A DNA stretch of 44,326 nt, taken from the IMG/VR virus record IMGVR_UViG_3300048908_000117, positions 1 to 44,326 of that record, one strand, 5' to 3'. The position numbers and the translations under genes are program-made. This stretch comes from a virus. Below the pieces are notes generated by a model. That model had not been told where the DNA came from. It saw only the letters and a program-made list of their open reading frames with translations, and searched no databases. Positions 525 through 26,320 of the stretch are shown here, one piece after another; position 1 is the first letter of the stretch, and the number at the start of each line of letters is the position of its first letter.

Positions 525-530
525 AATTTG

Positions 531-4227: not shown

Positions 4228-4467
4228 GTGCAGAAAATCGCACGTCGTTTGGCGGCAATCAATGACAGCGGGCACGTGGTCGGGCAAGACCATCATCGAG
4301 CCAAGCTGACCGATCACGATATCTGGCTGATCCACGAACTGCGAGCCGAGGGCATCAAGCGCCGTGAGATCGCGATCAAGTTCGAGATCAGCTTCTACAC
4401 GGTCTGCGAGATCCTCGCCGGCCGGCGACGGGGGCAGGTCGCCACAGGCCAGAAGCGGCGTACATAG
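4228..4467 (+). CDS. Small HTH protein at the early/late boundary
   Basis: The 79-residue basic protein begins at GTG (GGAGGA ends 7 bases upstream); an in-frame GTG at 4222 is too close to that site. Residues about 25-65 form a clear helix-turn-helix (KLTDHDIWLIHELRAEGIKR, then REIAIKFEISFYTVCEILAG), like the resolvase or sigma region-4 type. Its position between the replication gene with the repeat array and the terminase genes is where late-gene regulators usually sit. It could activate the late promoters or bind the repeat array. Both are inferences. Its stop codon overlaps the first CGTACATA motif. Confidence 0.65.
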   Translation: MQKIARRLAAINDSGHVVGQDHHRAKLTDHDIWLIHELRAEGIKRREIAIKFEISFYTVCEILAGRRRGQVATGQKRRT

Positions 4468-4470
4468 GCG
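4456..4470 (+). promoter_or_regulatory. CGTACATAG motif, copy 1 of 5; candidate late promoter before terminase
   Basis: CGTACATAGGC, with TACATA at 4461-4466, ends in the TAG stop of the HTH gene and lies 39 bases before the terminase small subunit ATG. TACATA resembles a -10 hexamer, but no conserved -35 is seen among the five copies, so an activator or altered polymerase would be needed. Confidence 0.5.
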
Positions 4471-4499
4471 GGCTGAGCGGTGCCATCTTGCGCCGCATC

Positions 4500-5084
4500 A
4501 TGCTTCCCAACTGGGTTCACCCTTTCCTAGTCCACCTTGAGCGCACCGGCAACGTTGCCGGCAGCGCGCGCGCAGCGGGCCTGTCCAGCGCGGCATCGGC
4601 CTACAACCTGCGCAAGACCGATGGCGATTTCCTCGCTGCCTGGGACCTCGCGATCGAGGCCCACACCGATGACTGCGAGGCCGAGCTCACCCGGCGCGCG
4701 TTCGGCTACGAGGAGCCGGTCGTCTATCAGGGCCAGCTGACGCCGGTCTGGGCGCGTGACGAGCAGGGCAACGTCATCACCGAGGCCTACAGCGTCATGG
4801 GCGCCGACGGCCAGGAGGGCACCGCGCACCGCGCCGTGCAAGCGCGCGACGAGAACGGCAACCTGCGATGGCTCACCGTGACCAAGTTCAGCGACACGCT
4901 GCTCCTGGCTCGCGTCAAGGCGTACCGCAAGCGCTACGCCACTGATCGCACCGAGGTCGTGAGCTCCACGGCCGTCGACTCGATGACCGACGCTGAGCTG
5001 CTGGCCGAGTTCAACACGCTGCAGCGCAAGCTGGCCACGATCAAGGCGCCGCCGGCCGACACCGACCTGAGCGACTTCGCATGA
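4500..5084 (+). CDS. terS: Terminase small subunit
   Basis: About 194 residues (TTG at 4488 is an alternative start four codons upstream; neither has a good ribosome site). The N-terminal 45 residues resemble the HTH of small terminases (VHPFLVHLERTGNVAGSARA). A middle section follows that is typical of these proteins (FGYEEPVVYQGQLTPVW), then KFSDTLLLARVKAYR, which occurs in many DNA-packaging small subunits. The C-terminus is acidic. It recognises the packaging site and presents DNA to the large subunit encoded next, whose start overlaps this stop by 4 bases. Confidence 0.85.
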   Translation: MLPNWVHPFLVHLERTGNVAGSARAAGLSSAASAYNLRKTDGDFLAAWDLAIEAHTDDCEAELTRRAFGYEEPVVYQGQLTPVWARDEQGNVITEAYSVMGADGQEGTAHRAVQARDENGNLRWLTVTKFSDTLLLARVKAYRKRYATDRTEVVSSTAVDSMTDAELLAEFNTLQRKLATIKAPPADTDLSDFA

Positions 5085-6709
5085 CCCAGGCGCTGTCGGT
5101 GCGCGAGCGCGCGATCCTGCAGGAGGCCATTGCCCGCGGCCGCGCGCTGCTGGCGCGTCAGCCCTTGTGGGCGCCGCTGCCCGGCCCGCAGCTCATGGCC
5201 TACGAGTCGGACGCCGACATCGTGGGCTTCGGCGGCGCCGCCGGCGGCGGCAAGTCTGACCTGGCGATCGGGAAGGCGCTGATGAAGGCCCACGAGGTGC
5301 TGATCATGCGCCGCGAGGGCACACAGCTGCAGGGCATCGAGGAGCGCATGCGCAAGCTCCTGGGCGGGGACGACGGCTACAACTCGACCAAGCGCGTATG
5401 GCGCGACGCCGGCCCGCGCAAGGTGCTGGTCGAGTTCGGCTCCTGCCCGAACCTGGGCGACGAGCAGCGTCAGCAGGGCCGCCCGCACGACCTGCTCGTG
5501 TTCGACGAGGCCGCCAATTTCCTCGAGCTGCAGGTGCGATTCCTCCTGGGCTGGAACCGGTCCACCAGCTACGACGAGTACGGGCAGAAGGTGCGCAGCC
5601 AGGCGCTCCTCACGTTCAATCCGCCCACGAGCGCCGAGGGTCGCTGGATCGTCGACTTCTTCGCACCGTGGCTCGACGCCAAGCATCCACGCTATCCAGC
5701 CGCCCCCGGCGAGAAGCTGTATTGCGTGATGCTGCCTGCCGAGAACGGCACCAGCCGCGACGTCTGGGTCGACGACGCGCGCCCGTGCATCGTGGTCAAT
5801 GGCGAGATCTCGTACGACTTCGATCCGGCTGACCATCCGGCCGAAGACATCATCGAGCCGCAGTCGCGCACGTTCATCCCGTCGCGGATCAGCGACAACC
5901 CGCACCTTGCGGGCTCGGGCTACCTGCGCGTGCTGCAGGCCATGCCCGAACCGCTGCGCAGCCAGATGCTGTATGGGGACTTCCAGGCCGGCATGACCGA
6001 CGACCCGTGGCAGGTCATCCCGACCGCCTGGGTCGAGGCCGCGATGGCGCGCTGGGTGGACCGATCGCCCAAGGGCGAGATGATGAGCCAGGGCGTCGAT
6101 GTCGCGCGCGGCGGCAAGGACAACACGACGATTGCCAACCGGCACGCCAACCCCGACGGCAGCAAGGGCGCGTGGATCGATCGCCTGAAGATCTATCCGG
6201 GCACCGAGACGCCAGACGGCCCGGTCGTCGCCGGCCTGGTGATCGCGTCTCGCCGCGACGAGGCGCCGATCCACATCGACATCATCGGCGTGGGCGCGTC
6301 GCCGTACGACACGCTCAACGGCATGGGCCAGCAGGTGCTAGGCATCAACGTCGCCGAGAAGGCGCTCGGAACCGACAAGTCCGGCAAGTTGCGGTTCTTG
6401 AACCAGCGCAGCGAGCTCTGGTGGCGCATGCGCGAGGCGCTCGACCCGGCAAACGACACGGGCCTGGCGCTGCCGCCCGACAAGGATCTGCGAATCGAGC
6501 TGTGCACACCCACCTGGTCGATGTCCGGATTCGTCATCAAGGTGGCCAGCCGCGAGGAGATCTACGAGAAGATCAAGCGGTCAGTCGACCGCGCGGTCGC
6601 CGTCATCCTGGCCATGATCGACACGCCCAAGCGCAAGAAGCCTGCGCCGGGCGACGTACATAAGCCGGGCGGCAAACGCGAGCATGACCCCTATGCCGGC
6701 CTCAACTGA
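5081..6709 (+). CDS. terL: Terminase large subunit
   Basis: The 542-residue DNA-packaging motor/nuclease has a Walker A GGAAGGGKS (51-59) and a Walker B with catalytic acid LLVFDEAAN (D142, E143). The C-terminal RNaseH-fold nuclease starts near GVDVARGGKDNTTIANR (around residue 345). Length and order are those of large terminases of podoviruses. ATG overlaps the terS stop (ATGA). The end of the gene carries the second CGTACATA motif. The packaging mode (headful or cohesive) cannot be read from the sequence. Confidence 0.93.
   Translation: MTQALSVRERAILQEAIARGRALLARQPLWAPLPGPQLMAYESDADIVGFGGAAGGGKSDLAIGKALMKAHEVLIMRREGTQLQGIEERMRKLLGGDDGYNSTKRVWRDAGPRKVLVEFGSCPNLGDEQRQQGRPHDLLVFDEAANFLELQVRFLLGWNRSTSYDEYGQKVRSQALLTFNPPTSAEGRWIVDFFAPWLDAKHPRYPAAPGEKLYCVMLPAENGTSRDVWVDDARPCIVVNGEISYDFDPADHPAEDIIEPQSRTFIPSRISDNPHLAGSGYLRVLQAMPEPLRSQMLYGDFQAGMTDDPWQVIPTAWVEAAMARWVDRSPKGEMMSQGVDVARGGKDNTTIANRHANPDGSKGAWIDRLKIYPGTETPDGPVVAGLVIASRRDEAPIHIDIIGVGASPYDTLNGMGQQVLGINVAEKALGTDKSGKLRFLNQRSELWWRMREALDPANDTGLALPPDKDLRIELCTPTWSMSGFVIKVASREEIYEKIKRSVDRAVAVILAMIDTPKRKKPAPGDVHKPGGKREHDPYAGLN
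6651..6666 (+). promoter_or_regulatory. CGTACATAA motif, copy 2 of 5; candidate late promoter inside the 3' end of terL
   Basis: GCGACGTACATAAGCC with TACATA at 6657-6662 lies 27 bases before the ATG at 6684. Here the motif is also coding (DVHKP), which makes the exact match to intergenic copies less likely to be chance. Confidence 0.5.
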
Positions 6710-7169
6710 CCTCGCAACCCTTGCGAACTCGCCCACCCGCGAGCAGATGGAGGAGCGCGGTCGTCTGATCGCAGCGGTCGAGGCCGCGGGCGACGGCGTC
6801 AAGCTCGAGCACCGCGACTACTTCGCCCCGGGCGTGTACATGCGCGAGCTGTTCATTCCCGCCGGCACCGAGCTGCAGGGCGCACGCCACAAGACCGACC
6901 ACCTGGTCATGTTCGACGGCGACATCACGGTCTGGCACGAGGGCGACATGGTGCGCCTCACCGGTCGCCACACGCTCGTGAGCCACGCCGGCGCGCAGCG
7001 CATCGGTCGCACCTACGCCGACACCTGGTGCACGGGCGTGTTCCCCAACCCCGACAACGAGCGGGACGTGCGCGTGCTCGAGGCCCGATTCATCGAACAG
7101 CCCGAGCAGCTGCAGTGCAACCGCTTGCCGGTACTGCCGCGCCGAGAGGAGAACCCATGTTTGGTCTGA
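6684..7169 (+). CDS. Cupin-like phage protein between terminase and portal
   Basis: The 161-residue protein has a beta-rich core from about residue 45 (REL-FIPAGTELQGARHKTDHLV, then DGDITVWHEGDMVRLTGRHT) that reads as a single-domain cupin, with a candidate metal site at the paired histidines. Proteins of this type commonly sit near terminase and portal genes in BPP-1-like phages, with unproven function. It overlaps the terL end and the next gene (13 bases), consistent with a late operon. Confidence 0.6.
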   Translation: MTPMPASTDLATLANSPTREQMEERGRLIAAVEAAGDGVKLEHRDYFAPGVYMRELFIPAGTELQGARHKTDHLVMFDGDITVWHEGDMVRLTGRHTLVSHAGAQRIGRTYADTWCTGVFPNPDNERDVRVLEARFIEQPEQLQCNRLPVLPRREENPCLV

Positions 7170-7477
7170 CCGCAGCCGAAGCTGCAGCCCTGGCCGCCGC
7201 GGCCGTCGCCGCAGGATCCGCAGCCTACAGCGCCAAGCAAGGCGCCGACGCGCAGCGCCGCGCCGGCCAGCAGGCCATCGCCGCCGCCAAGAGCAACGCC
7301 CAGTCCGCCGACGAGGCGAACAACGCCGCGAACGCGAAGTCGCCCGACGTCAGCGCGCAGCTGCAGGCCAATCTGGCCGCCGGCAAGCAAGGCGCCGCAG
7401 GCACCATGCTCACGGGCCCGGGCGGCGTCGACCCCACCACGCTGACGCTCGGCAAGTCGTCGCTGCTGGGGGGCTGA
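7157..7477 (+). CDS. Small alanine-rich virion-type protein
   Basis: The 106-residue protein starts at ATG 7157 with GAGGAGAA just upstream. A hydrophobic alanine helix (residues about 4-24) is followed by AKQGADAQRRAGQQAIAAAK, a helical pattern also seen in T7 gp14-like internal virion proteins and in the gene at 17476. It overlaps both neighbours, and the portal gene begins at its stop. It is probably a minor head or internal protein. Function is unproven. Confidence 0.6.
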   Translation: MFGLTAAEAAALAAAAVAAGSAAYSAKQGADAQRRAGQQAIAAAKSNAQSADEANNAANAKSPDVSAQLQANLAAGKQGAAGTMLTGPGGVDPTTLTLGKSSLLGG

Positions 7478-9192
7478 TGCGCGAGCAGCAGATCACGACC
7501 CGCGCTGACCTGCTCCGGCGCTGGGGCGAGCTGAAGAACGAGCGCGCGAGCTGGATGCCACATTGGCGCGAGCTCTCGCAGTTCCTGCTGCCCCGCTCGG
7601 GGCGCTACTTCATCCAGGATCGCAACCGCGGCGCGCGGCGCCACAACCAGATCTATGACTCGACCGGGACGCGCTCCGTGCGCGTGCTGGCCGCCGGGAT
7701 GATGTCAGGCATGACCAGCCCGGCCCGGCCGTGGTTTCGCCTGTCGACGCCCGATGCCGACCTGAACAAGCACCAGCCAGTCAAGCTGTGGCTCGCCGCG
7801 TGCACCGATCTCATGCTGTCGGTGTTCAACAAGTCGAACGTCTATCGGGCGCTGCACCAGACCTACGAGGAGCTGGGCGTCTTCGGCACCGCGGCCAAGA
7901 TCATCATGCCCGACTACAAGAACGTCGTGCATCACGCCTCGCTCACGGCCGGCGAATACTGCATCGCGACCGACTTCCGCGGCAACGTGGACACGATCGC
8001 ACGCGAGTTCGAGAAGACCGTGGCCGAAGTCGTCAAGGAGTTTGGCTACCAGAACTGCAGCAAGACGGTGCAGAACCTCTGGGACAACAACACCCTCGGC
8101 GCCTGGGTGCCGATCATCCAGATCATCGAGCCGCGCGCGGACCGCGAACGTGACTTCAAGAGCAAGCTCGCGACCGACATGGCTTGGCGCTCGTGCTACT
8201 TCGAGCAGGGCGCCAACTCCGACGAGTACCTGCTGGACTCAGGCTACAACGAGTTCCCAGGCCTGTGCTCGCGTTGGGCCGTCTCGGGCGGCGACATCTA
8301 CGGCAACTCGCCGGGCATGGAAGCACTGGGCGACGTCAAGCAGCTGCAGCAAGAACAGCTGCGCAAGGCGCAGGCCATCGACTACATGGTCAAGCCGCCG
8401 CTCGTCGCGCCGACCTCCTACAAGAACAACGAGACCGACATGCTGCCCGGCGGCATCACGTTCGGCGACGGCACCGAGAAGATCCAGTCCGCTTTCGAGG
8501 TGCGCCTCGACCTGGGCGCGATGCTGGGCGACATCCAGGATGTGCGCGAGCGCATCAAGTCGTCGTTCTACGCCGACCTGTTCCTCATGCTCAGCGAGCA
8601 GAACGAGACGCGCATGACCGCCACCGAGGTCGCCGAGCGTCACGAGGAAAAGATGCTCATGCTCGGCCCGACCGTCGAGCGCCTGCACAACGAGGAGCTG
8701 AACCCGCTGATCCAGTCGACGTTCGACCGGATGCTGCGCGTGGGCATGCTGCCACCCCCGCCCCAGGAGCTGCACGGCGTGACGCTGCAGGTCGAGTTCA
8801 TCTCGATGCTGGCGCAGGCCCAGCGCGCGATCGGCACCAACTCGATAGACCGGTTCGTCGGCAACCTCGGCCAGATCGCCGCCTTCGCGCCGGGCGTCCT
8901 GGACAAGTTCGACTCCGACGACTGGGCCGACAAGTACAGCGACATGCTGGGCATCTCGCCGTCCCTGATCGTGAGCAACGACAAGGTCGCGCTCATCCGC
9001 CAGGGCCGCGCGCAGCAAGCGCAGGCACAAGCGCAGGCGCAGCAGCAGAACCAGGCCGCAGACACGATCCAGAAGCTGGGTAACGCCTCGACGGCCGACA
9101 ACACGGCGCTCGCGTCGCTGGTCTCGCGCGGCGGCCTGGTGCAGACAGCTCACCCCGCCGGCCCGACCGCCGGCTTCAGCGGATACACCTGA
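7477..9192 (+). CDS. Portal (head-to-tail connecting) protein
   Basis: The 571-residue protein matches podovirus head-tail connectors: N-terminal RADLLRRWGELKNERASWMP, then RSVRVLAAGMMSGMTSPARPWFRL, central YGNSPGMEALGDVKQLQQEQ, and MTATEVAERHEEKMLMLGP. A glutamine/alanine-rich helix (AQQAQAQAQAQQQNQ) near residue 515 resembles the barrel or crown end of portals. It forms the dodecameric ring through which DNA is pumped and to which the tail attaches. Its start overlaps the preceding stop. Confidence 0.92.
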   Translation: MREQQITTRADLLRRWGELKNERASWMPHWRELSQFLLPRSGRYFIQDRNRGARRHNQIYDSTGTRSVRVLAAGMMSGMTSPARPWFRLSTPDADLNKHQPVKLWLAACTDLMLSVFNKSNVYRALHQTYEELGVFGTAAKIIMPDYKNVVHHASLTAGEYCIATDFRGNVDTIAREFEKTVAEVVKEFGYQNCSKTVQNLWDNNTLGAWVPIIQIIEPRADRERDFKSKLATDMAWRSCYFEQGANSDEYLLDSGYNEFPGLCSRWAVSGGDIYGNSPGMEALGDVKQLQQEQLRKAQAIDYMVKPPLVAPTSYKNNETDMLPGGITFGDGTEKIQSAFEVRLDLGAMLGDIQDVRERIKSSFYADLFLMLSEQNETRMTATEVAERHEEKMLMLGPTVERLHNEELNPLIQSTFDRMLRVGMLPPPPQELHGVTLQVEFISMLAQAQRAIGTNSIDRFVGNLGQIAAFAPGVLDKFDSDDWADKYSDMLGISPSLIVSNDKVALIRQGRAQQAQAQAQAQQQNQAADTIQKLGNASTADNTALASLVSRGGLVQTAHPAGPTAGFSGYT

Positions 9193-9193
9193 C

Positions 9194-10861
9194 ATGACAG
9201 GCTACACACGCCACACGCCGATCTACCTCATCGACGCGACGGACACGCCCGTGGGCGTGGTCGACCGGCTGGGGCGCGAGTGGCTGTTTCCGGCCTCGCT
9301 GACAGCTGGCGCCGACGGCGGATCGATCGGCAATCTGGCGTTTGGCCAGTTACTGCACGATTCGACCGACACGCCGATTGGCTACCAGGTCTTCGGCCGC
9401 GAGTTCATCTTCGCGTCGCCATTCACCCCGAACACGACTCGCGGGCTGCGCCAGGCGAAACGACCCCTGCTGCTCTCGGCCGCCGGCGTGCCTCAAGGTC
9501 TGTTCGTGCGCAGCGGGGTTGCGTCGCAGTTCGCGGCACTGCCGGCTGAAGGTGGCACCGTCAGTGGCATCCCGTTCGCGTCCGACCTCGTGGGCCACTT
9601 CGCGGCCGATGCGATCACGCCGCAAACGGACAACACTGCGTTGACCTCGTGGACAGACAGCGTGACCGGACTGGCGCTGACGCAGGCCACCGGCGCCGCG
9701 CAACCGAAGTACCGAACCAACGTCATCGGCGGCCTGCCGGGTGTGCAATGCTCCGGCGCGCAGTGGCTGTCCGGCTCCATCCCGGCGCTGAAGACCGCGA
9801 TGGACACCCGCACGGGCACGGTCTACATCGTCGTCAGCAACACCGCGGCCAAGCCCAACGGCACGGTCTTCGGCAACAGCACTGGCGGCCAGGCGTTCGC
9901 CTTCATGCACACCGGCGCGCTGATCGGTCGCTTTGCCAACGGCACGCAGCTGCAGCTGCCCTACACCTCAGGCGCGAACCTGGTCTGTTTCGGCTCGACC
10001 AGCAGCGCCACGAAGTATTACCCGACGCAAAGTGGCACCGCGCTGGAGCGGGTCTACGTCAACGGCATGTGCAAGTATTCGAACACGACGGCCTGGCCGG
10101 CGACGAATGCTGCGGACGGCCAGTTCACGATCGGCGCGATCAACTCCAGCGGCGCGCTGCCGTTCAGCGGCTACGTCCACGAGGTCTTCTGCTACAACCG
10201 CGTGTTGACGCAAAACGAAATGCTCCAACTGGAGATTTACGTTCGCAACAAGTATTCGACGGCGCCGACCTGGAACGCTGTTTCTTCCATCCCCTGCATG
10301 GACGGCGACTCGATCACCGACGGCGTGGGTGCGACGAACTTGCCGGCTGCCTATCCGTACCTGACGGCGCAGGCGCTGGGGTTGATCCCGGGTCAGTGGA
10401 GCGTCCAGGCTGTCGGTGGCATGACGACCGCGGGCATCACGGCCAAGATCCCCGACTGGAACCAAATCGGCACGCTCACCGGCAAGGTGCCCAAGGTCGC
10501 ATTCTTCGAGTGGTACAACAACCACGTCACGGCGATCTCGGCGGCGCAGTCGTACACGAACATCCAGGCCTACGCGTCCACACTGAAGGCAAACATCACG
10601 ACCGCGCGCCTGGCGGGCGGCACGTCCACGGCCTACAGCGGCGACCCGGATCCGACCGATCGCGATGCGTACAACTCGCTCCTGGACGGCAATCACTCGT
10701 TCTTCGACGCCTACATCCAGCTGCACGCGAACGCGACCATCGGCGTGTCCGGCGCGTATGCCTCGGGCAGCGCTACCTATTGGTCCGACACCGTCCACTT
10801 CAAGGACGCAGGCTACGCCGTGCTCGCCCCACTGATGACTGCAGGCATCAACGCGCTCTGA
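9194..10861 (+). CDS. SGNH/GDSL-type hydrolase with central lectin-like domain, virion-associated
   Basis: The 555-residue protein starts one base after the portal stop. Residues about 1-90 are short beta repeats (TDTPVGVVDRLGREW, TDTPIGYQVFGREF). Residues about 125-345 read as a LamG/concanavalin-like beta sandwich (FTIGAINSSGALPFSGYVHE). The C-terminal part has SGNH catalytic blocks: MDGDSITDG with S373 (block I), EWYNNH with N442/N443 (block III), and DTVHF with D532 and H535 (block V). Such esterases deacetylate carbohydrates, so action on host surface polysaccharide is plausible. It sits between portal and Bbp19-like genes, where relatives usually have no such gene, which suggests an insertion. 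The virion location is inferred from position. Confidence 0.75.
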   Translation: MTGYTRHTPIYLIDATDTPVGVVDRLGREWLFPASLTAGADGGSIGNLAFGQLLHDSTDTPIGYQVFGREFIFASPFTPNTTRGLRQAKRPLLLSAAGVPQGLFVRSGVASQFAALPAEGGTVSGIPFASDLVGHFAADAITPQTDNTALTSWTDSVTGLALTQATGAAQPKYRTNVIGGLPGVQCSGAQWLSGSIPALKTAMDTRTGTVYIVVSNTAAKPNGTVFGNSTGGQAFAFMHTGALIGRFANGTQLQLPYTSGANLVCFGSTSSATKYYPTQSGTALERVYVNGMCKYSNTTAWPATNAADGQFTIGAINSSGALPFSGYVHEVFCYNRVLTQNEMLQLEIYVRNKYSTAPTWNAVSSIPCMDGDSITDGVGATNLPAAYPYLTAQALGLIPGQWSVQAVGGMTTAGITAKIPDWNQIGTLTGKVPKVAFFEWYNNHVTAISAAQSYTNIQAYASTLKANITTARLAGGTSTAYSGDPDPTDRDAYNSLLDGNHSFFDAYIQLHANATIGVSGAYASGSATYWSDTVHFKDAGYAVLAPLMTAGINAL

Positions 10862-10882
10862 TCTTTCAAGCGATTCGAGGCA

Positions 10883-10900
10883 GACCGACGTACATAAGCT
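10883..10900 (+). promoter_or_regulatory. CGTACATAA motif, copy 3 of 5; candidate late promoter
   Basis: CCGACGTACATAAGC with TACATA at 10891-10896, 35 bases before the ATG at 10926, in the 64-base gap after the SGNH gene. It restarts transcription for the capsid genes. Confidence 0.5.
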
Positions 10901-10925
10901 CGGCGCCCGCTTCCACATTCACGGC

Positions 10926-11216
10926 ATGGACACGACCGACGAACTCCACCCCGAGGCGAGCGCGCAGCGCGACGCAGGGAAGGCTGCCGGTCAAGTCGCC
11001 GCGAATGACATCAAGTGGCTGATGGACCAGAAGCAAGGCCGACGCATCATGCGCCGCCTGCTGGCCGAGGCCGGTATCCACCGTACGAGCTTCACCGGCA
11101 ACAGCGAGACGTTCTTCCGCGAAGGCAAGCGTGCCTTCGGCCTGTTCCTCGAGGCCGAGTGCACGCGCCATGCGCCGGAAAACTTCATCGTGATGCTGCA
11201 AGAAGGCATGAAATGA
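10926..11216 (+). CDS. Bbp19-like head morphogenesis protein
   Basis: The 96-residue protein carries the core seen in Bbp19-family proteins of BPP-1-like phages: GRRIMRRLLAEAGIHRTSF, then TGNSETFFREGKRAFGLFL. It has the usual length and usual position, immediately before the scaffold. The role is unproven and assigned to head assembly by context. The stop TGA overlaps the scaffold ATG. Confidence 0.75.
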   Translation: MDTTDELHPEASAQRDAGKAAGQVAANDIKWLMDQKQGRRIMRRLLAEAGIHRTSFTGNSETFFREGKRAFGLFLEAECTRHAPENFIVMLQEGMK

Positions 11217-11878
11217 CCGAACCAGTGCAGGGCGGGGTAGCAGAACCCACCGACGCCGCGCCCGCAGTGAGCGCAGACGCTTCGACCACATCGTTGGTCG
11301 AGACGCCTGCAGTCGAGAAGACTGGCGCAGAGCCGGTTCTGGACGCAGAAGGCAAGCCGGTTGTCGAGCCCAAAGCCGACGATGGCCCGCCCGATACGTA
11401 CGCGGACTTCACACCTCCCGAGGGCGTCCCAGCGCCCGCCGGCGAGCTGATGACGGAGTTCGCGGCATTGGCCAAGGAACTGGGGATGAGCCAGGCGAAA
11501 GCGCAAGACGCGTTCGCTTTGGTCGCCAAGCTCGCCGAGAAGGGTGCCGCCGGTAAGGCAGCGCTCGAGGCGAGCCGCGCCGAGGCAGCGCGCACGGCAG
11601 CGCTCGAGGCAAATGCCCAGGCCGTCCGAAGCGACAAGGAGTTCGGAGGCGAGAAGCTCGCCGAGAACCTCGCCGTCGCCAAGGCCGCCATGGCAGCCAC
11701 GACGACGCCCGCGTTCCGCGAAATGCTCGACAAGAGCGGCCTTGCGAATCACCCGGAAATGATCCGGATGTTCCTCAAGGTCGCGCCGGCGTTCGCCGAG
11801 AGCAAGCACGTGCCGGGCGGCAAGGCCCCCGGCGGCGACAAGCCCGCGGCGAAGGTTCTCTACCCAAACGCAGCATAA
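11213..11878 (+). CDS. Capsid scaffolding protein
   Basis: The 221-residue acidic protein (start MTEPVQGGVAEPTDAAP) has a disordered proline/alanine-rich N-terminus, a long helical middle (ELGMSQAKAQDAFALVAKLA) and a basic tail (GGKAPGGDKPAAKVLYPNAA). This composition and the position directly before the major capsid gene are typical for scaffolds, which guide procapsid assembly and then leave. Start chosen at the ATGA overlap with the preceding gene. Confidence 0.8.
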   Translation: MTEPVQGGVAEPTDAAPAVSADASTTSLVETPAVEKTGAEPVLDAEGKPVVEPKADDGPPDTYADFTPPEGVPAPAGELMTEFAALAKELGMSQAKAQDAFALVAKLAEKGAAGKAALEASRAEAARTAALEANAQAVRSDKEFGGEKLAENLAVAKAAMAATTTPAFREMLDKSGLANHPEMIRMFLKVAPAFAESKHVPGGKAPGGDKPAAKVLYPNAA

Positions 11879-11881
11879 CGG

Positions 11882-11899
11882 CTTTAGCAGCCGATAAAG
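11882..11899. promoter_or_regulatory. Operator-like palindrome just upstream of the major capsid gene
   Basis: CTTTAGC-AGCC-GATAAAG lies in the 31-base gap between scaffold and capsid genes, ending 10 bases before the capsid ATG. No -35 box is apparent. It is the only member of this operator family in the structural region, and could lock capsid expression in the lysogen. Confidence 0.6.
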
Positions 11900-11909
11900 A
11901 AAGACCACC

Positions 11910-12941: not shown

Positions 12942-12948
12942 GCCTGAC

Positions 12949-12970
12949 GCCCCGCCTCGGCGGGGCTTCT
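12949..12970 (+). terminator. Hairpin terminator after the capsid gene
   Basis: GCCCCGCC (12949-12956), TC, GGCGGGGC (12959-12966) then TTCT. The 8-bp GC stem with a weak T-run suggests partial termination or mRNA 3' end protection. Confidence 0.65.
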
Positions 12971-13005
12971 CGCAAGCTGCCTCCTCATCTTTCAGAAAGC
13001 ACACC

Positions 13006-13497: not shown

Positions 13498-13521
13498 TCG
13501 ACGCACGGACACCCCTCAGTC

Positions 13522-13543
13522 AGGCGCCCCCGGGCGCCTTTCT
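13522..13543 (+). terminator. Hairpin terminator after the cement gene
   Basis: AGGCGCCC (13522-13529), CC, GGGCGCCT (13532-13539), then TTTC. Perfect 8-bp stem. Confidence 0.65.
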
Positions 13544-13583
13544 GGGTGACAGAGCCCCAACCCCACACGCAAGGCACGCAACC

Positions 13584-14072: not shown

Positions 14073-14086
14073 CCATGCGGATCCGT

Positions 14087-15094: not shown

Positions 15095-17421
15095 GAGGTT
15101 TCGATCGCTCCTTCACCGGCGGCGAGCTGACCCCGCAGTTCTTCGGCCAGGTCACCGACGCCAAGTACATGACCGGTCTGGCGCTGGTCCGCAACTTCCG
15201 GATTCTGCCTCACGGCCCGGTGCAGAACCGCGCCGGCTTCGAGTTCGTGCTCGAGGTCAAGGACTCGACCAAGAAGACGCGGCTGATGCCCTTCACCTAC
15301 TCGACGACCCAGACGATGGCGGTCGAGGTCGGCGAGGGATACTTCCGCTTCCACACCATGGATCCGGTCACGCTCTACGGCTCGACGCTCCTCAGCGGCG
15401 GCCTGCCGTACGAGGTCGCGAACAGCTATCTGCAGGCAGACCTCTTCGGTATCAAGTACGTGCAGAGCGCCGACGTATTCACGATGGTGCATCCGAACTA
15501 CCCGCCCGCCGAACTGCGGCGCGGCGGCGCGCTGGCCTGGACGTTCACGCCGATTTCGTTCGTCACGACCCTGGTCGCGCCGACCGCCGTCCAGGTCACG
15601 GCGACGCTGGGCGCCACGCCCGGCACGCCGATCATCCATCGCTACGCCGTCACGTCCGTGGCGAGCAACAACATCGACGAGTCGCTGATCTCGATCGAGG
15701 CGACCGCAACAGTGGCCCAGGCGTTCCTGTCGGCCGCCACGCGGGCGAACCCCGGCACGTTCACCACGACCGCAGCCCACGGGCTGCTGGTCAATGACCC
15801 GGTGTCGATCAGCTCGGTTGTCGGCATGACGCAAGTCAACGGGCTGGCCGGACTGACGATCAACACCGTCCCGACGACTACGACCTTCACACTGGCACTG
15901 AACGGCATCCCGCTCGATACCAGCGGCTACACGGCCTACATCAGCGGCGGCCAGGTCTTCGTCACCAATGGCGTCAAGAACAACCTGTTCGACACCGGCG
16001 CGAGCAACACGATCAAGTGGACGGCTGCCGCCGGCGCGCTGCGCTACAACGTCTACAAGTACAGCAATGGCCTGTGGGGCTACCTGGGCCAGGCCTCGGG
16101 CACGACGTTCAGCGACAACAACATCACGCCCGACATCAGCCACACCCCGCCCGAGGTGAGCAACCCCTTCGCGTCCGCGAACAACTACCCCGGCGCGGTC
16201 ACGTACTTCGACCAGCGTCGTGTCTTCGCCGGCACGATCAACCAGCCGCAAAACATGTGGCTGACCCGGGCTGGCACCGAGTCGAACCTGACGTACTCGA
16301 TCCCGACGCGCGACTCCGATTCGATCTCGTTCCGCGTCGTCGCGCGCGAAGCCAACACGGTGCGCCATCTGGTGCCGCTGGCCAACCTTGTCGCGCTCAC
16401 CAGCTCGGCCGAGTGGCGCGTCACCAGCGTGAACACCGACTCGCTGACGCCCGCCAGCATCAGCGTGAAGCCCCAGTCCTACATCGGCGCCAACGACGCG
16501 CAGCCGGTCGTCGTCAACAACAACGTCGTCTATGGCGCCGCGCGCGGCGGGCACGCCCGCGAGATGGCCTACCAGTACACGGCCGGCGGCTACGTCACAG
16601 GCGATCTGAGCCTGCGCGCGCCGCACCTGTTCGACCAGCTGACTATCGTGGACATGGCATTCAGCAAGGCCCCGTACCCCATCATCTGGATGGTGAGTTC
16701 GAACGGCAACCTGCTGAGCCTGACTTACGTCCCAGAGCAGCAGATCGGCGCCTGGGCACGTCACGACACCGACGGCGTCTTCGAGTCGATCTGCGTGGTG
16801 GCCGAAGGCGCTGAGGACGTGCTCTACGCGATTGTCAAGCGCACGATCAACGGCACGCAGAAGCGCTACGTCGAGCGCATGCGACCGCGCGTCTTCGCGA
16901 CACCCGCCGACTCGTTCTTCGTCGACTGTGGCGGAACCGCCAACTTCAACACGCCTCAGACCGTCGTGTCCGGCGCCTACTGGCTCGAGGGCAAGACAAT
17001 CAACATCCTGGCCGACGGCGCCGTGCACCGCCCGCTCGTCGTCTCAGGCGGCAGCTTCACGCTGGACAATGCTGCGAGCAAGGTGCAGTTCGGCCTGCCG
17101 ATCACGGCCGATCTTCAGACCCTGCCGATCGCCAACCAGGTCGCCGGCGCAGGCCAAGGCATGAAGAAGAACGTGAACAAGGTCTACGTTCAAGTCGACT
17201 CGTCGGGCGCGCCCGCCACCGGCCCGAGCTTCACGCAGCTGGTCAGCCCCAAGATCCGCACGACCGAACCCTACGGATCGGCACCCCTGCTGCAGACCGG
17301 AGAAATCGAGATCGTCAATCAGGCCGCCTGGTCAGACAGCGCGCAGGTGTGCGTGCGCATGAGCGACCCGCTTCCACTGACCCTCATCAGCATGACGCTC
17401 GATTACGCCATGGGTGGCTGA
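15091..17421 (+). CDS. Tail tubular protein B / nozzle (T7 gp12-like)
   Basis: The 776-residue protein begins MRGFDRSFTGGELTPQFFGQ and continues with GLALVRNFRILPHGPVQNRA, GFEFVLEVKD and MPFTYSTTQTMAVEVGEGYF, the standard opening of podovirus nozzle proteins. LTYVPEQQIGAWARHDTDG near residue 550 is also characteristic. An inserted Ig-like region (around residues 165-310) precedes the platform part. It forms the hexameric tube end of the tail. Its stop overlaps the next CGTACATA motif. Confidence 0.88.
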   Translation: MRGFDRSFTGGELTPQFFGQVTDAKYMTGLALVRNFRILPHGPVQNRAGFEFVLEVKDSTKKTRLMPFTYSTTQTMAVEVGEGYFRFHTMDPVTLYGSTLLSGGLPYEVANSYLQADLFGIKYVQSADVFTMVHPNYPPAELRRGGALAWTFTPISFVTTLVAPTAVQVTATLGATPGTPIIHRYAVTSVASNNIDESLISIEATATVAQAFLSAATRANPGTFTTTAAHGLLVNDPVSISSVVGMTQVNGLAGLTINTVPTTTTFTLALNGIPLDTSGYTAYISGGQVFVTNGVKNNLFDTGASNTIKWTAAAGALRYNVYKYSNGLWGYLGQASGTTFSDNNITPDISHTPPEVSNPFASANNYPGAVTYFDQRRVFAGTINQPQNMWLTRAGTESNLTYSIPTRDSDSISFRVVAREANTVRHLVPLANLVALTSSAEWRVTSVNTDSLTPASISVKPQSYIGANDAQPVVVNNNVVYGAARGGHAREMAYQYTAGGYVTGDLSLRAPHLFDQLTIVDMAFSKAPYPIIWMVSSNGNLLSLTYVPEQQIGAWARHDTDGVFESICVVAEGAEDVLYAIVKRTINGTQKRYVERMRPRVFATPADSFFVDCGGTANFNTPQTVVSGAYWLEGKTINILADGAVHRPLVVSGGSFTLDNAASKVQFGLPITADLQTLPIANQVAGAGQGMKKNVNKVYVQVDSSGAPATGPSFTQLVSPKIRTTEPYGSAPLLQTGEIEIVNQAAWSDSAQVCVRMSDPLPLTLISMTLDYAMGG

Positions 17422-17433
17422 CGTACATAGGAC
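17419..17433 (+). promoter_or_regulatory. CGTACATAG motif, copy 4 of 5; candidate late promoter
   Basis: TGACGTACATAGGAC with TACATA at 17424-17429, just after the nozzle gene stop and 52 bases before the ATG at 17476. It would drive the internal virion protein genes. Confidence 0.5.
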
Positions 17434-17475
17434 GCCCGCGCACGTCTACCTTCTCCCGCATCCATAGGAGAGGAA

Positions 17476-18087: not shown

Positions 18088-18088
18088 C

Positions 18089-20317
18089 ATGGCAGTTCCG
18101 ATCTACTCAAATTTCCAGACGTCGCAAACCGCGGCGCCCGACGTCAACGTGCAGGCCCCGAGCGGGCCGTCGGCAGGCCAGGTCGGCGCGGCGCAGGCCG
18201 ACGCCATGGGGCGCGCCGCGGCGGGCGCGGGCGACGCGGTCTCGCATATCGCGCTCGCGATGCAAGACCAGATTAACCAGACGCGCGTCAACGACGCCAT
18301 GAACCAGGCGCGCATCGCCGCGCAGAAGCTGACCTACGATCCGCAAGTCGGCTACAAGAACCAGCTCGGCAACGACGCGCTGGAACGCCAGAGCGGACAG
18401 CCACTGTCGGTCGAGTATGGCGACAAGCTGAACGAGGCGGTCAGTGGCATCGCCGGCGCGCTGGGCAACGACGCGCAGCGCCGCGCGTTCGCGCAGTCGT
18501 CGGCCGCACTGGCGACGCAGTTCCAGGGCGACGTCGAGGCGCACACGCTGCAGCAGTTCGGCGTCTACCACGACAGCGTCAACGACGCGACAGTCGCGCT
18601 CGCCAAGAACACGATCGAGCAGAACTGGCAGAACCCGGACGTCATCTTCGGTGGCAAGGATCCGAACACCGGTCAGCCGATACCGGGCGCCATCGATCAG
18701 ATCAAGGCCGCCACGATGGCCAAGGCCAAGCAGCACGGCCTCGAGGGCGCGCCGGCGGACGCCGCCATCCTCGACGCCGTCAGCAGCTCGCACCGCGGCG
18801 TCGTGCAGGCCGCGCTCGAGAACGGCAATCCGCAGTACGCCATGATGTACATGGACGCGGCGCGCAAGCGCGGCGAGCTCACCGGCAACGACATCCTCGC
18901 GCTGCAGGCCCACGTGACGCAGGCCGTGAACCTGGGCGTCTCCGCAGCCGCCGTCTCCGCGACGACGACCGAAGCGGCCAAGGCGTTCGCGCCGACCATG
19001 CTGGACCGGTTCCAGCGCATCACCGCCAGCTCGGAGTCGGGCGGCCAAGACATGCGCGCCGACGGGACGCCGGTCGTTTCGCCTGTCGGCGCCAAGTACG
19101 CGATGCAGGTCATGCCGGCCACCGCGGCGAACCCCGGCCACGGCATCGCACCGGCCGCCAGCGACACGCCGGCCGAATACAACCGCGTCGGTGTGCAGCT
19201 GCAGGCTGCGCTGCTGCAGAAGTATGGCGACCCGGCGCTCGCCTGGGCCGCCTACAACGCCGGCGAAGGCAATGTCGACAAGGCACTGAAGGACGCCGAC
19301 GGCGGCGACTGGATGAGCGCGCTCGCTGCCTACCAGTCCCCGGCCAATCACAAGCAGACCGTCGACTACGTGACCAAGAACGTCAACGCCCTGGGCGACC
19401 CGACGGCCGGACGCGTCGATCGACCAACGGAGCTGCAGTTCGTCAGCAGCGCGCTGTCGAAGCTGCCGCCGAACGCGTCGCCCCAGCTGGTGCAAATGAC
19501 GCGCGAACACGCGACGCAGCAGTTCGACGTCGTCGACAAGTCGTTCCGCGAGCAGGGCGATCGGGCGCTCAGCGCCGTGCAGCAGTGGCTCTACGCGAAC
19601 CAGGGCCACGGCGCCACGGTTGCCGACGTGCCGCAGCAGCTCATGGATGACGTGTTGCGCTTCGCGCCGGGCGACGTCGGGCGGCCGTTGGAGTCATTCA
19701 GCCGCGCGCTGCAGCGCGGCGACGTGGTCACCAACCAGGGCCGCTACAACGACATCGTGTCGAACCCGGGCCAATACTTCAAGCTGCCCAACTCGTCGTG
19801 GGACATGCTGCAGACCGAGCTCAGCCCGAGCACGTTCCAGAAGCTGTCCGAGCGCCGCGCGCAGTGGCTCAACGGCACGGGCGACGACTCGCCGAACGGC
19901 CTCGACCACGCGACGATCAAGCGCGTGCTCGACGAGCGCCTTATGAGCGCCAAGCTCCCGACGACCGCCAAGCTCGGCACGCCTGACGCGCAGTGGCTTG
20001 GCGCGACCAAGCTGTTCGTCGACCAGTCGATCCAGCAGGCCCAGTACTCGACGAACAAGCGCATGGTGCCAGCCGAGATCGAAGCCCACATCGACAAGCT
20101 GTTTTCGGCCAGCGTCCCCTTCCGGCGGACCGTATTCGGCTACCAGCTCGGCTCGGACACGCCGCATAACCTGATGGGCATGCACATCGATGACCTCGAC
20201 ATGAACGGGGCCGACGTCGCCAACCTGAAGGCGGCCTTCGCCAAGCACGGCAATCCCAACCCGTCACCGACGGATCTCCTGAACGCGTATCGCAACCTGA
20301 AGCTGCAAAATCAATGA
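18089..20317 (+). CDS. Internal virion protein with lytic transglycosylase domain
   Basis: The 742-residue protein starts at ATG 18089, one base after the preceding stop. The N-terminal part is helical. Residues about 305-430 carry a soluble-lytic-transglycosylase fold: catalytic Glu316 in SSESGGQD, then AKYAMQVMPATAANPG, and the AYNAGEG motif at 388-394. This would cut peptidoglycan during DNA entry, as T7 gp16 does, although here the activity sits in the shorter of the two large internal proteins. The stop overlaps the next start by 4 bases. Confidence 0.85.
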   Translation: MAVPIYSNFQTSQTAAPDVNVQAPSGPSAGQVGAAQADAMGRAAAGAGDAVSHIALAMQDQINQTRVNDAMNQARIAAQKLTYDPQVGYKNQLGNDALERQSGQPLSVEYGDKLNEAVSGIAGALGNDAQRRAFAQSSAALATQFQGDVEAHTLQQFGVYHDSVNDATVALAKNTIEQNWQNPDVIFGGKDPNTGQPIPGAIDQIKAATMAKAKQHGLEGAPADAAILDAVSSSHRGVVQAALENGNPQYAMMYMDAARKRGELTGNDILALQAHVTQAVNLGVSAAAVSATTTEAAKAFAPTMLDRFQRITASSESGGQDMRADGTPVVSPVGAKYAMQVMPATAANPGHGIAPAASDTPAEYNRVGVQLQAALLQKYGDPALAWAAYNAGEGNVDKALKDADGGDWMSALAAYQSPANHKQTVDYVTKNVNALGDPTAGRVDRPTELQFVSSALSKLPPNASPQLVQMTREHATQQFDVVDKSFREQGDRALSAVQQWLYANQGHGATVADVPQQLMDDVLRFAPGDVGRPLESFSRALQRGDVVTNQGRYNDIVSNPGQYFKLPNSSWDMLQTELSPSTFQKLSERRAQWLNGTGDDSPNGLDHATIKRVLDERLMSAKLPTTAKLGTPDAQWLGATKLFVDQSIQQAQYSTNKRMVPAEIEAHIDKLFSASVPFRRTVFGYQLGSDTPHNLMGMHIDDLDMNGADVANLKAAFAKHGNPNPSPTDLLNAYRNLKLQNQ

Positions 20318-23300: not shown

Positions 23301-26300
23301 CACCGGCAAGGGCATGCAGCCCGGCGAGGTGGCGGACATGTTCGGGTTCCCGGACGTGGAGACGCTGGTCAAGGCGATCACCGAGACCGAGCCGCCGCGC
23401 GCCGCCGTTGAGGGGCTGGTCGACCAGCGCATGCTCGAGCGCCACGGCGAGATCTCGTCGCCCGAGGCGATGGCCAAGACGGCCGACGAGCTGGTGCAAA
23501 ACGAGGTGCGGTCGACGTTCGTCGCCACCGAGCTGCGCGCACTGAAGAAGTCGATCGGCAAGCCCAAGGAGATCGTCGCCGCAGCCAAGGAGGCGGCCCA
23601 GAACACGATCGACGTCAAGCGCGTACGCGACATCAACGAGGGTCAGTTCCGTGCCGCGGAGACGCGCTCGGCGACCCAGGCCGAGCGCGCCATGATGAAG
23701 GGCGACACGGAGGGTGCCGCCACGGCCAAGCGCGACCAGCTGCTCAACATGGAGCTGGGCCGCGCCGCGCGCGACGCCAAGGACTTCGTCGAGAAGTCGC
23801 TGACCTACCTGGCCAAGTTCGACAAGCCGTCGGTGCGCGAGGCGATCGACGTCGACTACCGCGACCAGATCGACAGCCTGCTCGAGCGCGCCGACCTGCG
23901 CAAGGGCGTCAGCGGCACGGCGCTGGACAAGCGCCAGACCCTGATGGAGTGGGTCGAGAAGATGGCCGCCCAGGGCTACAAGCCGGACGTGCCCGAGAAC
24001 CTGCTCAACGAGGCCCAGCGCTGGCACTACAAGGACATGCCCTTCGCGGCGTTCCGCGGCCTGGTCGACTCGGTCAAGTCGATCGAGCAGCTGGGCAAGC
24101 TCAAGGAGCAGCTTCGCGACGGTCAGGAGACTCGTCGCATCGGCGAGCTGGCAGACGAGATGCGCGACACGGCGGCCAAGCTGCCGCAGCGCGAGGGCGA
24201 ATCTAACCGCGGCCTGACGCGCATGGAAGCGAAGTGGGTCAAGGTCAAGGCCTTCGGCCGCAGCGCCCAGGCGTCGCTGCTGAAGATGGAGCAGATGTTC
24301 GACTGGCTCGACGCGCGCAACTCCAACGGCGTCATGAACCGGGTCGTGTTCCGCCGGATGTCCGAGGCGGGCATTCACGAGAACGAGCTGCTGCGCTCGA
24401 CCAAGCAGGGCATCGACGAGCTGATGAAGTTGCACCTGAACGACATCACCAAGACGAAGACGATCTACACGGCCGACGGCCTGATCGACGGCACCACCGG
24501 CCGCCCACAGAAGTTCACCACGAAGGAAATGCTGATGCTCGCCGGCAACGCCGGCAACGAGAGCAACCTCGCCAAGCTCGCCAAGGGCGAGGGCTGGGAT
24601 CCGCAAGCGGTCTGGGACTTCTTGCACAAGAACATGACGTCGGCGCACTGGGATTTCGTCGAAGGCATGGGCAAGACGCTCGAATCGCTGTGGCCTGAAA
24701 AGGTCGCGATGGGCCGCCGCCTGGGCGAGACGACGCCGGAGAAGATCGCGCCGCGGCCGTTCCAGACGCCCGACGGCAAGACGCGCAGCGGCTGGTACTG
24801 GCCGCTCATGTACGACCCGGCCCGCAGCCAGGATGTCGCCGAGCGCGGCGCGCGCACGGGCGACCAGCTGTTCGAGAACATCTACTCCAAGCCCAACAGC
24901 GACACGGGCCGGATGAACACCCGCAACGAGAACTATGCGCGGCCGATCCTGCTCGACCTTGACGCGCTGCCGAGGATGATCAAGGAGGAGATCCATGACA
25001 TCGCTTGGCGCGAGGCCGTGATCGACGCAGACCGCTTCACGTCGCACCCCGTAGTGCGCAAGGCGATCATCGACGCGCTGAGCCAGGAGCATTACGACCA
25101 GATCCGCCCTTGGCTGCAGTCGCTGGCCAACGACGGCAAGCTGGGCGTCGAAGGCAACAAGGGCTGGGTCTGGCTGAACAAGGTCGCCAGCGAGGCGCGC
25201 ACGCGCGCCACGATGGTCGGCCTCGGCTACCGCCTGACCACCGCGGCGGTCCACGGCCTGTCGGCCGGCATGGAGTCGGTCGCCGAGCTCGGGCCTGTCT
25301 GGTTCGGCAAGGGCTTGGCCGACTTCACCAACCCGGCGCAGTGGAAGGCCAACAAGGAGGCGATCTTCGCCAAGAGTAGCGAGATGCGCGACCGGGCCGA
25401 CGAGGTCGACCGCGACATTCGCGAGCACCTGCACTCGCTCGACACGGCGCTGATGGATCCCACGAGCAGCGCCATGGCGCGCGGCGCCAACCTGCTGCGT
25501 GCGCACGCCTACGACCTGATCGGTGGCCTGGACATGGCGACGGCGCTGCCGACCTGGCAGGGTGCCTACCTCAAGGCGATGTCCCCGATCGAAAAGGGCG
25601 GCCTGGGCATGGGCGAGCAGGATGCCGTCTATTTCGCCGACAAGACCGTGCGCAACGCCCACGGCGGAACAGGCGTCAAGGACATGGCGGCCATCCAGCG
25701 CGGCAGCGAATTCCAAAAGCTGTTCACGATGTTCTACACGTTCTGGAACCACAACGTGAACCGGCTGATCGACACCGGCAAGCTGATCGGCAGTGCAGAG
25801 CACCGGGCCGCCATGAAGGAGGCGAACCACTGGTCGGACTCCAAGCTGGCCGCGACAATCATCCTGCGCACGCTCGTCTACACGATCGGCGTGCAAACGA
25901 TGCACGCGATTTTCCACCCGCCCAAGGACGGAGATCCGGACAGCTGGCTGATGTACGCAGCCAAGGAAATGGGCAGCGTCGCGTTCGGTGGCGTCCCGCT
26001 CGCGCGCGACATCTACGCACACTACGCCACCGGGCGCGACTACAGCGCCACGCCGGCGGCCGGCATCATCGACACCATCGGCAAGTCAGGCACCGACCTC
26101 GCCGCGGCGCTGACCGGCAAGCAGGTCGACGACAAATGGGTCAAGCACATTGTCGCCACCGGTGGCGTCGTGCTCAACCTGCCAGCCGGCCAGCCCGCGA
26201 ACGTGGCGCAATTCATCTGGGACATCGGCAACGGAACCGCCGACGTGACCAGCATCAAGGACTGGTACAACGGCCTGCTGCACGGGGACGTGAAGCACCA

Positions 26301-26304
26301 CTAG
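20314..26304 (+). CDS. Giant internal virion/polyvalent protein with zincin motif (1996 residues)
   Basis: It is the longest gene here, 1996 residues, and is placed where T7 has gp16. The N-terminal third is helical with a hydrophobic glycine-rich segment (about residues 240-350). A zinc-peptidase motif HELGH is at 647-651, with E702 in HHEAFATGWE a candidate third ligand, and RGVFSRMRAWMLSVYQSL follows. This combination is frequent in large polyvalent proteins injected with phage DNA. Long charged helices fill residues about 800-1350. A C-terminal region near 1800 (FQKLFTMFYTFWNHNVNRL) is like the LPD38-type domain. It is probably ejected into the host, with possible protease activity that is an inference from the motif. 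Confidence 0.8.
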   Translation: MSDPFEAAVSATLQSSAAEIRDNVAQALPVNPDAEAQLRQSAATVGVPLATARALPDQINQQAQLANFQPDVLARKFPTTAELLRDPDLARIAHDDIPATTNVEAAVKAPAAPATPHTDPTPGKPFGWTTIPNYLASADGQHGLAFDIGSGISSMAKGLGGSFNKLAEAVNTVLGGVPVLYDKATGGNTASDWWFHKMVTPGVENEPTFNLSKDASFSDKGFHASGQLLGTLSQIVLSGGAAEAGAPVVAANDTAAAGVAKVVTHGVKAMTAPALTEAVNTGRDVYTATGNGAAALKAAEAAYGTTAAMGVIPIAAEGGLFKRVITGALSGLSTGEASRITMNAALPENMQVPFDWENTFLSAVTGAALGGVMGGRGDPTMSPQVRDTYSDAYKTAQAEAQNEQLQQIAQAANASKLRARDPQAFKSFVANAADAGDLQSVHIEGHAFAQMLEKAGITSDEIRQTMPEVASQLDAALGENAPRNGLVTIPIEDFATHIAGSKIEDAFMQAVRATPESASLGEAEALTQSRQDDMQQRAQQIADAHNEDTAYQVSVDKMHAQVDANLAALKMRPDQLDANNTLLKAFYTTQAERTGMLPHEFADKYPVTASNRTLAGAAFEQKARGTYSPEAKSIALLKDANLSTFQHELGHYFLDTLGQMAALPDAPAGVKADMAAFLKWQDIPDLDTWHEMSIDQQREHHEAFATGWETYLMKGQAPSLELRGVFSRMRAWMLSVYQSLKGAPGDFTPEVRGVFDRMIASEDAIHQAEMARKYMPLFDSPEKSGMTPEEWSTYQAQGKDATEQAIESLIGKTMKDMAKADRLRTASLRAVQRDAAEKRKALTLEVRREVMGAPVYRAWSFLTGKDSAQLPDAINAEHQQALREWSEKREEHLAEIKPTIKAQAWEAAPASKGTYKNYGLAKGQWLAKNRARIDLEVKRQMLDYDAEHPKPKAPVVPDTASKDPTTGAGKIDLEALREAVGKDAAKKLADLRMTTSTGKGMQPGEVADMFGFPDVETLVKAITETEPPRAAVEGLVDQRMLERHGEISSPEAMAKTADELVQNEVRSTFVATELRALKKSIGKPKEIVAAAKEAAQNTIDVKRVRDINEGQFRAAETRSATQAERAMMKGDTEGAATAKRDQLLNMELGRAARDAKDFVEKSLTYLAKFDKPSVREAIDVDYRDQIDSLLERADLRKGVSGTALDKRQTLMEWVEKMAAQGYKPDVPENLLNEAQRWHYKDMPFAAFRGLVDSVKSIEQLGKLKEQLRDGQETRRIGELADEMRDTAAKLPQREGESNRGLTRMEAKWVKVKAFGRSAQASLLKMEQMFDWLDARNSNGVMNRVVFRRMSEAGIHENELLRSTKQGIDELMKLHLNDITKTKTIYTADGLIDGTTGRPQKFTTKEMLMLAGNAGNESNLAKLAKGEGWDPQAVWDFLHKNMTSAHWDFVEGMGKTLESLWPEKVAMGRRLGETTPEKIAPRPFQTPDGKTRSGWYWPLMYDPARSQDVAERGARTGDQLFENIYSKPNSDTGRMNTRNENYARPILLDLDALPRMIKEEIHDIAWREAVIDADRFTSHPVVRKAIIDALSQEHYDQIRPWLQSLANDGKLGVEGNKGWVWLNKVASEARTRATMVGLGYRLTTAAVHGLSAGMESVAELGPVWFGKGLADFTNPAQWKANKEAIFAKSSEMRDRADEVDRDIREHLHSLDTALMDPTSSAMARGANLLRAHAYDLIGGLDMATALPTWQGAYLKAMSPIEKGGLGMGEQDAVYFADKTVRNAHGGTGVKDMAAIQRGSEFQKLFTMFYTFWNHNVNRLIDTGKLIGSAEHRAAMKEANHWSDSKLAATIILRTLVYTIGVQTMHAIFHPPKDGDPDSWLMYAAKEMGSVAFGGVPLARDIYAHYATGRDYSATPAAGIIDTIGKSGTDLAAALTGKQVDDKWVKHIVATGGVVLNLPAGQPANVAQFIWDIGNGTADVTSIKDWYNGLLHGDVKHH

Positions 26305-26320
26305 GCGACGTACATAGCCT
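26303..26320 (+). promoter_or_regulatory. CGTACATAG motif, copy 5 of 5; candidate late promoter before the tail fibre
   Basis: GGCGACGTACATAGCC with TACATA at 26311-26316, directly after the giant protein stop and 35 bases before the fibre ATG at 26346. It would drive fibre and lysis genes. Confidence 0.5.

Follow-up and report, generated by a model that had tools for sequence, protein, structure and literature searches.

Putative bipartite late promoters and their proposed helix-turn-helix activator in phages related to BPP-1

The window analysed here is a complete virus record of 44,326 bases (IMG/VR IMGVR_UViG_3300048908_000117), whose nearest named relatives at the DNA level are the Bordetella phages BPP-1, BIP-1, BMP-1 and vB_BbrP_003, with 72.5% identity over 15-16% of the structural-region query. 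Five copies of a short motif stand before, in order, terS, a cupin-like or short tail fibre gene, a Bbp19-family gene, an internal virion protein gene and a tail fibre gene. Directly before terS lies a gene for a helix-turn-helix (HTH) protein of about 75 residues, as it does in BPP-1 (where the protein is Bbp27, 42.6% identical to that of the window) and in most relatives. The motif and this protein, considered as a late promoter element and its putative reader, are the subject of this report. No tRNA or known RNA family was found within the window.

The motif and the downstream hexamer in the window

A sequence-only reading of this DNA had recognised five copies of CGTACATAR, all rightward, as a probable late promoter family. 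An exact search confirmed every position (4459, 6655, 10889, 17422 and 26309), with all copies on the plus strand and none on the minus strand; 100 dinucleotide shuffles of the window contained a mean of 0.04 copies and a maximum of one. The core TACATA has no further occurrence anywhere in the 44 kb, and the motif proved longer than first described, with the form RCGTACATAR. The stop codon of the HTH gene is overlapped by the copy at 4459, while that at 6655 falls within the terL coding sequence. The genes do follow the sites as claimed, but the distance of 27-52 bases given earlier becomes 37-54 nucleotides (nt) from the start of CGTACATA when probable start codons are used (Table 1). Among these, TTG 4488 was replaced by ATG 4500 as the terS start, and ATG 6684, which overlaps the downstream hexamer described next, was set aside for ATG 6693 in the cupin-like gene.

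At each of the five sites, the hexamer found 16 nt past RCGTACATAR has A at its second and T at its sixth position (xAxxxT). This is the sole offset at which all five agree, and a shared offset of this kind never arose in 200,000 random-shift trials. Of the bases in a sigma70 -10 element, A-11 and T-7 are the two key ones. With the hexamer taken as the -10, the motif lies at -38 to -29, in the position of a -35 element, and is therefore not itself a -10 box. A scan of positions 1-20000 found no sigma70 -35/-10 consensus promoter at the four sites there, and no TTGACA-like hexamer stands 16-18 nt before the -10; across the phage family, the consensus in that place is a lineage-specific element, GTGYNCRTA. 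Four one-mismatch copies of CGTACATA on the plus strand (27931, 29879, 36732 and 40849) were rejected as promoters of this type, as they lack A-11 and T-7 together.

Table 1. Proposed late promoter elements and associated genes in the window
Feature	Position	Strand	Comment
Small HTH protein, proposed late activator	4249..4467	+	recognition helix FYTVCEIL; covarying Cys53 (+6) and Glu54 (+7)
Late promoter 1, upstream element GCGTACATAG	4458..4467	+	overlaps HTH-gene stop codon
Late promoter 1, -10 CATCTT	4484..4489	+	A-11/T-7 at fixed offset; terS probable ATG 4500
terS	4488-5084	+	PHROG match
Late promoter 2, upstream element ACGTACATAA	6654..6663	+	in terL coding sequence
Late promoter 2, -10 GAGCAT	6680..6685	+	cupin-like/short tail fibre gene, probable ATG 6693; hexamer identical in relatives L012, L013, L132 and L212
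Late promoter 3, upstream element ACGTACATAA	10888..10897	+	
Late promoter 3, -10 CACATT	10914..10919	+	Bbp19-family probable ATG 10926, 6 nt past hexamer, predicted leaderless
Late promoter 4, upstream element ACGTACATAG	17421..17430	+	
Late promoter 4, -10 TACCTT	17447..17452	+	internal virion protein probable ATG 17476; leader with AGGAG
Late promoter 5, upstream element ACGTACATAG	26308..26317	+	
Late promoter 5, -10 GAGACT	26334..26339	+	tail fibre probable ATG 26346, 6 nt past hexamer, predicted leaderless

The same layout with different motifs in related phages

Searches of viral and genome collections with terL and HTH queries yielded 265 loci in all, many of the viral ones being fragments. 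Simple k-mer counting near terL and terS gave too much noise. Searches anchored on genes were used instead, and these found a phage-specific element of the form GTGYNCRTA at homologous places in the relatives. When no -10 was asked for, a shared A/T offset nonetheless emerged 24-30 nt from the start of the 10-mer, where the register predicts it, in 37 of 42 cases. A layout-aware search of the 122 HTH-positive loci with at least three anchors gave motifs that beat all 30 shuffles in 83.

The 64 non-redundant loci contributed 191 sites, at which the conservation of the upstream element was, in percent, G94 T90 G72 Y N C88 R T96 A71. That of the hexamer was T70 A99 N A46 N T98, where the values for A-11 and T-7, the only two bases rewarded in this search, are inflated; T-12 (70%) and A-9 (46%) were unrewarded and fit a sigma70 -10. 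The first ATG falls 6-8 nt past the hexamer at 40 of 49 terS sites and 50 of 64 bbp19 sites, and the full signature of family motif, -10 and ATG 6-8 nt further on has 100 matches on the late strand against 7 on the opposite one.

Evidence for a reader acting in trans comes from four close relatives of the window (loci L012, L013, L132 and L212), whose -10 bases at homologous promoters are identical to those of the window at 17/18, 17/18, 21/24 and 21/24 positions. Whereas L013 retains CGTACATA, the other three have swapped the upstream element at all sites together, to ATTCACATAA in L012, GTTCCAATAG in L132 and GTGTAGTTAC in L212. Concerted changes of the motif beside nearly unchanged -10s imply a trans-acting reader of changing specificity.

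Many random copies in relatives would have spoken against the sequence-only reading. Three of four complete relatives are clean in this respect: BPP-1, zth2-2 and DC33 each have exact copies of their own motif before a -10 on the late strand in 4/4 cases and none on the other strand. The fourth, Caulobacter phage SR18, is a partial exception and is considered below. As a separate matter, Limnohabitans phage DC33 (PQ492659.1) is filed under Inoviridae yet has a gene for TerL together with head and tail genes like those of BPP-1.

Bordetella phage BPP-1

BPP-1 (Rauchvirus) resembles the window in gene order and in promoter layout at four homologous positions. It has no copy of CGTACATA; instead, GGGTGCCCGTGCC has exactly four late-strand copies, one each ahead of terS, bbp19 and the tail fibre gene bbp9 and one behind terL. 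Its motif, GTGCCCGTGC, is GC-rich and wholly unlike that of the window, and the HTH recognition helix (SKGAIAKIC) is correspondingly changed. All four sites have a hexamer with A-11 and T-7 at the offset seen in the window (AAAACT, TACTGT, TAGAGT and TAGCCT). In the literature searched we found no promoter role assigned to these sites in BPP-1 and no earlier description of BPP-1 late promoters, Bbp27 or the motifs, although journal coverage was partial and this is weak evidence of novelty.

The first of these promoters implies a terS start 63 nt downstream of the annotated one (NC_005357.1, about 26255-26318, minus strand). The annotation is probably 21 codons too long, because its 5' end runs over the late promoter, whose -10 is followed after 6 nt by an ATG. 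At the tail fibre gene, the promoter (about 6130-6186, minus strand) is overlapped by a strong hairpin followed by a T-run (cccctggggaag...cttccccaggggttttt). The 5' arm of the hairpin lies upstream of the predicted start, so that it could terminate an upstream transcript while sparing the new one.

The small HTH protein and its recognition code

An HTH gene was found upstream of terL in 175 of the 227 loci having enough sequence, at a median distance of about 0.8 kb and beside terS. The family belongs to Pfam HTH_7, the resolvase type. An AlphaFold2 model of the protein is trihelical and is confident only for helices 22-33, 38-45 and 49-56. A PDB fold search gave no match at E <= 0.001, the best being generic HTHs that include Tn3/gamma-delta resolvase and Hin. 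The top PHROG match in 29 of 44 members was phrog_6156, the C-terminal HTH of HNH homing endonucleases, and the "endonuclease" label on Bbp27 (NC_005357.1) probably stems from the HTH domain alone. The homologue in Acinetobacter phage 4316 (OM334891.1, 32483-32692) is annotated as a "recombinase family protein", probably likewise from the HTH alone.

The motif and the gene occur together. In HTH-positive loci, 61% of terL ends and 79% of bbp19 starts had a promoter-like site, against 0/46 terL ends and 0/7 bbp19 starts in HTH-negative loci, which are also more distant phages.

Among columns of the HTH protein and of the motif in the 64 non-redundant loci, the strongest association is between residue +7 of the recognition helix and motif base 5. 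Asp at +7 goes with G in 22 of 23 cases (Fisher p 9e-11), Lys with C in 14/19, Tyr with A in 3/3 and Glu with A in 2/2. In 33 held-out loci, with sites scored without base 5, Asp went with G in 17/17 (p 1e-6) and Lys with C in 4/5. A second association links residue +6 to base 3, with the discovery and held-out sets agreeing throughout: Arg with G (21/21 and 14/14, or 35/35), Gln with A (5/5 and 3/3, or 8/8) and His with T (2/2 and 2/2, or 4/4). The pairings of Arg with G and of Gln with A are standard protein-DNA contacts, and the pairing of Asp with G on the top strand is consistent with Asp contacting the C of the other strand.

Shared ancestry could produce such associations, and the TerL tree bears on this. 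It contains 12 supported independent pairs of loci that differ at +7; the base shifts in the same direction in about 9 and in the opposite direction in none (median p 0.004). Mutual information with base 5 reaches 0.71 for the HTH protein versus at most 0.35 for columns of TerS, Bbp19 and TerL. At other motif bases (pairs at 1, 2, 7 and 10) the HTH z-scores are high, but those of TerS, Bbp19 and TerL columns are also high; because of this, we claim a code only for bases 3 and 5. On the aligned loci, these two HTH residues predict which version of the motif each phage has.

In a further comparison, a Paraburkholderia prophage (L145, HTH 9181-9390) and the metagenomic relative L012 (HTH 4173-4403) have an identical recognition helix, ISKTQVCYIC, and a common motif core, TTCACATA, in spite of HTH proteins that otherwise differ.

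Covariation, co-occurrence and gene position all support the earlier suggestions that these late promoters need a phage factor and that the HTH protein, then placed at 4228-4467, is the likely one. The factor reading the motif is thus very probably the adjacent small HTH protein.

Proposed mechanism and alternatives

We consider it highly probable, from the comparisons above, that the sites are bipartite late promoters for a sigma70-type host polymerase, the upstream element being bound by the small HTH activator. The motif, the -10, their fixed spacing, the concerted divergence, the recognition code and the co-occurrence were computed here. In the proposed mechanism, host RNA polymerase would read the -10 (TAnnnT-like) through sigma region 2. 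In place of the absent -35 element, the HTH protein would bind the phage-specific element of 9-10 bp at -38 to -29, probably as a monomer, where it may substitute for or contact sigma region 4 and so recruit or stabilise the polymerase. The late operons for packaging, head, internal virion proteins and tail fibre would thereby be switched on. A relay is suggested by the gene order: the last gene of the replication operon would make the activator, and its first target promoter overlaps the activator's own stop codon. We infer, further, that binding activates and does not repress, that a monomer binds, that it contacts the polymerase, that expression is late, and where exactly the RNAs begin.

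Several late mRNAs would begin at or within 1-2 bases of the AUG. Since the first ATG at terS and bbp19 is mostly 6-8 nt past the hexamer, leaderless mRNAs are predicted, and the terS and bbp19 mRNAs are probably of this kind. The tail fibre gene of the window also fits the pattern, and the internal virion gene instead has a leader with AGGAG.

Several observations weigh against this interpretation. The motif was significant in only part of the HTH-positive loci, and two of the contrasts that favour it are softened by the rewarding of A-11 and T-7 in the 191-site search and by the greater distance of the HTH-negative phages, as noted with those figures. Covariation outside bases 3 and 5 is inseparable from shared ancestry, and a short tree of the HTH alone, with the recognition helix left out, has just two independent pairs with support, a number too small for testing. 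BPP-1 has no copy of its motif before the internal virion genes, and no motif was found in Acinetobacter relatives with a distant HTH. In SR18 (MN746332.1), several exact-motif sites lack T-7; at the late-strand positions 6471, 22551 and 42991 the downstream hexamers are GATACA, TAAATA and TAAAAA. The -10 or the spacing may differ in the Caulobacter host.

The HTH protein could also bind these sites as a repressor, keeping the late promoters covered until they are due to fire. Because the element overlaps the -35 position, a protein bound to it can obstruct polymerase, and evidence for binding such as covariation cannot by itself tell activation from repression. There is, however, no usable sigma70 -35 hexamer under the motif (family consensus GTGYNCRTA), so that the promoters are expected to be weak without help. 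The gene also closes the replication operon and immediately precedes the late genes, the place where the known late activators Ltr and RinA are found (PMC13123087), and we regard repression as unlikely.

Alternative roles for the motif itself have even less to recommend them. The repeats lie at operon borders and could mark points where gene modules recombine, or act in translation as an RNA signal close to start codons; at terS and bbp19 their distance from the start codon is often constant. That distance varies at the terL-end and internal virion sites, whereas the distance from motif to -10 does not; one copy lies inside terL, and covariation with the recognition helix points to DNA binding. 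Such a role is very improbable. The sequence-only reading had considered TACATA as a possible -10 box, with an unknown activator or a modified polymerase. TACATA does resemble a -10 and precede late genes, and T4 late promoters consist of a -10 only. On this view TACATA would be read by a phage sigma factor or a modified polymerase that needs no upstream element. The same positions in BPP-1 carry the GC-rich GTGCCCGTGC, which is unable to be a -10, and are GC-rich in other phages as well, while a separate hexamer with A-11 and T-7 is kept 16 nt downstream. We find this explanation scarcely credible, and a modified polymerase is not needed because the motif occupies the place of the -35 element.

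Comparison with known systems

The proposed activator combines the logic of T4 MotA with the gene order of RinA and Ltr, but the HTH protein belongs to neither family. In the T4 system the MotA box, centred near -30, stands in for the -35, so that, as proposed here, a phage DNA-binding protein reads the replacing element in combination with a sigma70 -10 (PMC6755090). The fixed spacing, A-11 and T-7, and the lack of a TTGACA-like element agree with an arrangement in which the -10 is kept. The differences are several. The element here lies at -38 to -29 and changes from phage to phage, and it serves late rather than middle genes. MotA has two domains, with a double-wing C-terminal domain, whereas the protein here is a single small trihelical HTH of the resolvase type, about 75 residues long, with no match to MotA in Pfam, PHROGs or PDB searches. 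In the MotA system AsiA remodels sigma region 4; no AsiA partner was identified here, and no search for AsiA-like proteins was made.

Regulators of the RinA/Ltr type are encoded at the corresponding place in temperate phages of Gram-positive bacteria (PMC13123087), at the end of the early cluster and directly before terS or the late promoter, as the HTH gene does here. Ltrs have about 130 residues, and for that of phi13 a set of four direct repeats at a single promoter has been proposed as the binding site (PMC13123087), whereas the smaller protein here would read single sites at several promoters in Gram-negative hosts. In size, and in its Pfam and PHROG matches to HTH_7 and the endonuclease HTH, it differs from RinA/Ltr, with which no direct RinA comparison was made. 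Hin and gamma-delta resolvase share the fold and family of its DNA-binding domain (HTH_7), but the protein here has no catalytic domain and is placed at promoters. Likewise, the homing-endonuclease HTH of phrog_6156 is its best PHROG match, and there is no nuclease domain in its roughly 75 residues.

It is a real possibility, somewhat short of probable, that these proteins form an undescribed class of late regulator: a stand-alone HTH of about 75 residues, of resolvase/homing-endonuclease type, that takes the part of sigma region 4, reads the -35 position by itself with a simple two-residue code, switches on leaderless late mRNAs and has been repeatedly re-coded into many mutually orthogonal activator-promoter pairs. 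BPP-1 and its relatives are the phages where diversity-generating retroelements were first characterised (PMC6199706). The proposed system is likely to be their missing late switch and would assign a role to a protein whose present label is "endonuclease". If dozens of phages have naturally re-coded an activator of 75 residues, such that two residues predict two bases, this would be a protein-DNA code of a rare kind, open to direct test, from which small orthogonal switches for transcription might be drawn. Leaderless mRNAs for the packaging and head regions, as predicted here, would be unusual.

A neighbouring gene

Between the portal gene and the Bbp19 promoter, the window has a gene for a protein of 555 residues (9194-10861) without a counterpart at that place in the BPP-1 map. 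Its GDSITDG-like and lectin-like stretches suggest an SGNH hydrolase.

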